Source: Verrucomicrobiia bacterium | GTDB lineage: Bacteria; Verrucomicrobiota; Verrucomicrobiia; Limisphaerales; UBA11358 | Assembly (NCBI GenBank): GCA_030038175.1 | Contig: JASHPN010000159.1 | Coordinates: 1-38,413, forward strand | Direction of reading: 5' to 3' | DNA length: 38,413 nucleotides | Shown: positions 11,498-12,384 of the stretch, one piece after another | Numbering within the stretch: position 1 is the first letter of the stretch | Layout: the number at the start of each line of letters is the position of its first letter | The notes under the pieces: model-generated | What the model was told of the DNA's origin: nothing | What the model saw: the letters and a program-made list of their open reading frames with translations, nothing else | Databases searched by the model: none | Position numbers and translations under genes: made by a program

Positions 11498-12384
11498 ATC
11501 TTAAACTCATCCGCGTGATATGAGCTTCGGACCATGGGGCCGCTGGCGACGTGGACGAAGCCCATTTCTTCGGCGGCGACTTTGTATTCGGCAAACTGGT
11601 CCGGTGAAATGAATTCCTTCACCGGCAAATGGCGCAGGGTGGGCTGCAAATATTGGCCGAGCGTCAGGATGTCGCAGTTCACGGCACGCAGATCGCGCAT
11701 GGCCTGGAGCAGTTCAGCGGTCGTCTCGCCCAATCCCAGCATCAAGCCGGATTTCGTGTAAATCGCCTCACCGCGCTTTTCCTTGACCTTGCCCAGTACT
11801 CTCAAGCTGCGCTCGTAGGTGGCCCGATGCCGCACTTCCGGGGTCAGACGCCGGACTGTCTCGAGATTGTGATTGTAAATGTGCGGGTTGGCCGCGAGAA
11901 CAGTTTCGATCGAGGCATCGGAATCATTGAAATCCGGCACCAGCACTTCGATGATAATATCCGGATTCAACTCGCGCACTTTTTCAATCGTTTTGGCAAA
12001 ATGATCGGCACCGCCGTCTTTCAAATCATCGCGGGCGACGGCCGTAATAACGACGTGCTTTAATCTCATCCGGCGGGTGGCTTCGGCCACGCGGGCGGGT
12101 TCATCGGCTTCCAGCGCCAGGGGTTTGGCAGTGGCGACGGCGCAAAAGCCGCAGGCGCGCGTGCAGCGGTCGCCGGCGATCATGAAGGTCGCCGTGCCTT
12201 TGCTCCAGCATTCCCAATGATTGGGTCATTTGGCGCTTTCGCAGACGGTATGCAGCTTGAGTTCGTCCAGCAGGGAACGAGTGCGGGCAAAGCTGTCGGA
12301 CGTGGGCAAAGTGATGCGCAACCATTCCGGGAGGCGCGGGCGCAACGGCGCGGGCGCGGATGCTTTCGGTTCAGCCGATGTCAT
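11494..12384 (-). CDS. lipA: Lipoyl synthase with in-frame TGA at a cluster cysteine
   Basis: A 296-codon frame from ATG 12384, read through one TGA at codon 53. LipA inserts two sulfurs into octanoyl groups on lipoyl-dependent enzymes, using two [4Fe-4S] clusters. The radical-SAM motif C74-x3-C78-x2-C81 ([11 protein letters not shown]) and the C-terminal RSSYHAD, whose Ser ligates the auxiliary cluster, are intact. The auxiliary-cluster motif CX4CX5C should be C48, C53, C59. Codon 53 is TGA instead of a Cys codon ([19 protein letters not shown]). The upstream 52 codons match LipA ([28 protein letters not shown]), so the reading frame is otherwise whole. Restarting at ATG 12183 would give a 229-aa protein lacking the auxiliary motif. 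Options are selenocysteine, nonsense mutation or base-call error. Confidence 0.85.
12226..12228 (-). other. TGA codon at the second Cys of the LipA CX4CX5C motif
   Basis: The plus strand reads TCA, giving TGA on the coding strand, in frame with both halves of lipA. Directly downstream are two very short potential stems, CCCAA-TCA-TTGGG and TGCT-GG-AGCA. The second places a G-containing turn about 20 nt after the TGA. Neither is a convincing bacterial SECIS by eye. Confidence 0.9.

Follow-up and report, generated by a model that had tools for sequence, protein, structure and literature searches.

The lipoyl synthase gene (lipA) carried by a 38,413-nucleotide contig from a Verrucomicrobiia bacterium (JASHPN010000159.1, the whole of which is referred to here as the window) is interrupted at a single point by an in-frame TGA, which occupies the position of a cysteine that holds the auxiliary cluster of the enzyme. 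Most likely, either one base of the sequence is wrong or the gene has very recently acquired a nonsense mutation. Of these, we regard it as probable that a single wrong base lies in the assembled consensus of an ordinary, single-copy verrucomicrobial lipA, the assembly being of the metagenome type. A selenocysteine-containing LipA is not supported.

A lipoyl synthase frame with one internal TGA

The interrupted frame lies on the minus strand and contains exactly one internal stop, a TGA at codon 53. The features discussed below are as follows.

11494–12384, minus strand: lipA (lipoyl synthase) frame with one internal TGA, running from an ATG at 12384 to a stop at 11494 (identified by translation and by a TIGR00510 match of 389.6 bits across the stop)
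12226–12228, minus strand: codon 53, an in-frame TGA where CX4CX5C has its second Cys (all 108 distinct sequences from relatives have a Cys codon here)
11494–12183, minus strand: 229-residue open frame past the stop, from CX3CX2C to RSSY and without the auxiliary-cluster Cys motif (ORF list; lipA equivalog model, 318.4 bits)
11126–11497, minus strand: small cupin-like ORF, an ordinary neighbour with a 4-base overlap with the end of lipA (ORF list)

In the profile search, the curated lipA model (TIGR00510, cut-off 310.25 bits) was matched from end to end across this one TGA, and the 318.4 bits listed for the downstream part are reached by that part alone. Both the CX3CX2C radical SAM motif (CTRACGFC) and the C-terminal RSSY are intact in the translation. 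The gene resembles the radical SAM enzymes described by TIGR00510 in its whole-length profile match and in both of these motifs, and it shares 87% of 282 residues with the closest full-length relatives in the comparison (36 of the 282 differ). It departs from them in the CX4CX5C motif, which is incomplete when read with table 11 because the codon of its second Cys is TGA. The Cys residues of this motif, along with the RSSY serine, are described in PMC12246082 as ligands of the LipA auxiliary cluster, which is consumed as the sulfur donor. Both the extent of the frame, broken solely at codon 53, and the placement of the TGA at the second motif Cys had been proposed in a first-pass annotation made from the sequence, and both are borne out here.

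With respect to the position of the stop, lipA offers 91 single-base routes to a stop codon, of which 7 (~8%) are at Cys codons (48, 53, 59, 74, 78, 81 and 237, with codon 53 counted as Cys). The coincidence of the stop with a Cys codon is an event of about 8% per nonsense hit at a site that was picked after reading the whole window, and it is weak evidence.

The surroundings of the gene hold several further elements. The cupin-like ORF gave only a weak ura-cupin match, below cut-off (E 0.0044). Upstream of lipA, an imperfect inverted repeat (12443–12477 and 12580–12610; 31-nt arms, 87% complementary and 102 nt apart) is made of CGTGTTCCGT-like units and may be a small repeat element. Elsewhere in the window, the adjacent plus-strand ORFs at 6703–8097 and 8108–9391 encode predicted proteins that are similar by eye; a large protein of secreted appearance seems to have been duplicated here in tandem.

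Codon 53 and gene preservation among relatives

The comparison set comprised 154 lipA loci drawn from the genus of the window, from its order and from the genome_contigs collection, corresponding to 108 distinct nucleotide sequences; a fragment outside the motif (L215) and a locus that duplicates L156 (L199) are not among the 154. Codon 53 is TGC in 79 of the distinct sequences and TGT in the remaining 29, with TGA in none, and no internal stop was found in the aligned part of any of the 108. When the motif with TGA was searched as an exact pattern in 387 genomes sampled across the phylum, a single genome, the window's own, contained it; the same pattern with Cys was present in 105 of the 108 comparison sequences, the set on which its sensitivity was gauged. 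The recurrence of TGA in relatives that a selenoprotein might be expected to leave was thus looked for and was not seen. In one relative (L154, from G267) the motif reads CESAKCLNHWECW, with Leu in place of the Pro that follows the second cluster Cys and with the Cys itself kept. Two genomes, G077 and G288, had been flagged with one TGA in lipA among the matches listed from a search of 293 genomes. Both proved to have Cys at codon 53 and no stop within their alignment to the window lipA, and translation identified the stop in G288 as the end of the gene.

Apart from codon 53 the gene is well preserved. Across the 108 sequences, 156 positions are conserved at 95% or more, and the window lipA is intact at 155 of them, departing at codon 53 alone. 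This agrees with the earlier statement that the gene bears no other damage; as to the comparison with relatives proposed alongside it, the uniform Cys at codon 53 was found and further decay of the gene was not. At fourfold sites, by comparison, about half of those shared differ between the window lipA and the nearest relatives compared (e.g. 65 of 124), and a lipA long free of selection would show more changes than are seen. Because 155 of the 156 conserved positions are intact, the stop, if it is a real mutation, should be younger than ~1% neutral divergence by a rough estimate.

Within the genus, a lipA DNA match was obtained in 46 of 49 genomes, the window's own included, and 44 loci from other genus genomes entered the comparison. 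In G292 the match is a 127-base piece outside the motif. No match was found in G132, G243 and G269 among the 49 genomes searched, G132 being without one though it is 94% complete; in these three, lipA has either been lost or lies on missing contigs.

Copy number and assembly quality

The genome that contains the window (as contig C298) amounts to 5,393,291 bases in 431 contigs, with an estimated completeness of 91.83% and contamination of 1.86%. A lipA profile search of these contigs gave one match of lipA scale, the sole other match to the model being a weak one of 21 bits on C23, so that the intact second lipA considered in the first-pass annotation was not found. Since no other lipA was found to stand in for the interrupted one, lipoyl synthesis would probably be abolished if the stop is real. 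An LplA-like ORF is present on C278 and might scavenge lipoate for the cell; its role is uncertain because it falls far short of the cut-offs set for the curated lipoate ligases (33.6 bits, against 280 for TIGR00545).

In terms of assembly quality, stops were absent from all 84 conserved-domain profile matches inspected in the genome (22 radical SAM, 9 selB-like, 2 BPL/LplA and 51 ABC), and ten other proteins of the window have good Pfam family matches and no obvious truncation. The count of 0 in 84 argues against a high error rate, yet the sample (tens of kb) is too small to exclude one spurious stop per 5.4 Mb.

A probable base error or a possible young nonsense allele

Our preferred explanation is that the consensus carries a wrong base, in which case the true codon 53 would be the usual Cys and the gene would make a normal LipA. 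We infer a wrong base, as opposed to a mutation in the cell, from a lone stop in a gene with no other damage, unshared by relatives, in a genome in which neither a second lipA nor Sec machinery was found. Several observations favour this explanation. Codon 53 is the one departure among the highly conserved positions, the corresponding codon is Cys in every relative compared, and the TGA form is confined to the window's own genome among the 387 phylum genomes searched. In addition, the assembly is fragmented, and isolated base errors do arise in assemblies of this kind. On the reverse strand, the bases flanking the TGA end a run of G. The end of a G run is an error-prone context for short reads. 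Against a base error stand the absence of stops from the 84 profile matches, the ten window proteins without obvious truncation, and the 7-in-91 coincidence that the stop should fall on a Cys codon.

The main alternative is a real and very recent nonsense mutation, present in the population or in the assembled strain only, which we consider a serious possibility but a less probable one. The product would then be a 52-residue fragment, perhaps accompanied by a second piece of 229 residues that arises by restarting and lacks the auxiliary cluster, and the cell would be left without lipoyl synthesis or would depend on lipoate obtained by scavenging. One clean substitution-type change without other decay is what a young allele looks like. 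The three genus genomes without a lipA match, one of them 94% complete, may mean that loss is tolerated, or may reflect missing contigs, and the LplA-like ORF might supply lipoate by scavenging. Nonetheless, the mutation would have to be younger than the ~1% neutral divergence estimated above, whereas the nearest relatives compared differ at about half of fourfold sites, and the low score of the LplA-like ORF makes its part in scavenging uncertain. We rank a fixed nonsense mutation below a base error because this is the only lipA and the gene shows no other damage. Either origin matches what is seen with single-nonsense alleles and base errors in draft assemblies, in which a stop stands isolated in a conserved gene and is unshared by relatives. 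Of the three readings offered in the first-pass annotation, these two survive, and the third, a Sec-containing LipA, does not find support in the results that follow.

Unlikely readings: recoded UGA and selenocysteine

A reading of UGA as Cys, by a special tRNA with a UCA anticodon or by context readthrough, is very improbable. Recoding of UGA to Cys with a non-canonical tRNA-Cys and SelB has reportedly been described (Vargas-Rodriguez 2018). In the window's genome, however, TGA is an ordinary stop. Among 31 ORFs of the window chosen as likely genes, the downstream lipA frame included, the stop codon is TGA in 15, TAA in 9 and TAG in 7. The genome has 42 tRNA places, of which ARAGORN names 41, and no UCA anticodon occurs among those 41 (150 of 186 candidates scored); the 42nd, at a contig start, has the anticodon CAT by eye. 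This tRNA set is incomplete, since 150 of the 186 candidates were scored and neither a His nor an Ile tRNA is listed, which means that some tRNAs are absent from the assembly.

The case for selenocysteine begins with a likeness to bacterial selenoproteins, in that a TGA stands exactly at an invariant Cys and the frame is open on both sides of it. The Sec trait, moreover, is patchy within the genus but exists nearby, where 3 of 49 genomes have a selA match above cut-off (G084, G303 and G292; loci L216–L218). The window's genome differs from those of selenoprotein producers in the machinery found in it. A search with TIGR00474 gave no selA match in the 91.8% complete genome, and none of 9 selB matches was over cut-off. 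The tRNA-Sec model gave 9 matches, one of them over cut-off (150 of 822 candidates scored). This candidate (C143:11641–11730, 52.4 bits) was identified by ARAGORN as a tRNA-Ser with the anticodon TGA, and the weaker matches come from other Ser and Leu tRNAs, so that no tRNA-Sec was found among the candidates scored.

Folds of the sequence around the stop were compared with shuffles. The 53 nt after the TGA fold at −13.0 kcal/mol (z −0.46), and 62 of 200 shuffles do as well; an 85-nt fold that includes 12 nt before the TGA is mildly better than chance (z −1.69, 11 of 200 shuffles as good). Of the two short downstream stems drawn earlier, then, the 53-nt stretch offers nothing beyond chance and the longer one a slight excess. 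Relatives with selA show Cys where the codon could be read: in the two selA-carrying genus members with a readable lipA motif (L151 for G303 and L206 for G084), codon 53 is Cys, and in the third, G292, lipA is represented by an end piece. Among the papers listed in a literature search, none joins lipoyl synthase and selenocysteine in its title or abstract, a statement that concerns titles and abstracts and not everything in print.

Taken together, the lack of selA, tRNA-Sec or selB over cut-off, a 53-nt downstream fold within the range of shuffled sequences and the absence of TGA from every compared relative accord with the first-pass annotation in not favouring selenocysteine. Even with genome completeness at 91.8% and 150 of 822 tRNA-Sec candidates scored, a LipA with Sec as a ligand of its auxiliary [4Fe-4S] cluster is the least probable of the readings considered. 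It is also very unlikely that the cluster is held by either Sec or a UGA-inserted Cys with the Sec or recoding genes sitting in the unassembled part of the genome.

Implications

A Sec residue ligating the sacrificial cluster of LipA would, if true, constitute a new selenoprotein family and provide a direct probe of sulfur insertion. For draft genomes, the present case serves as a caution: TGA in place of a Cys codon does not on its own point to selenocysteine.
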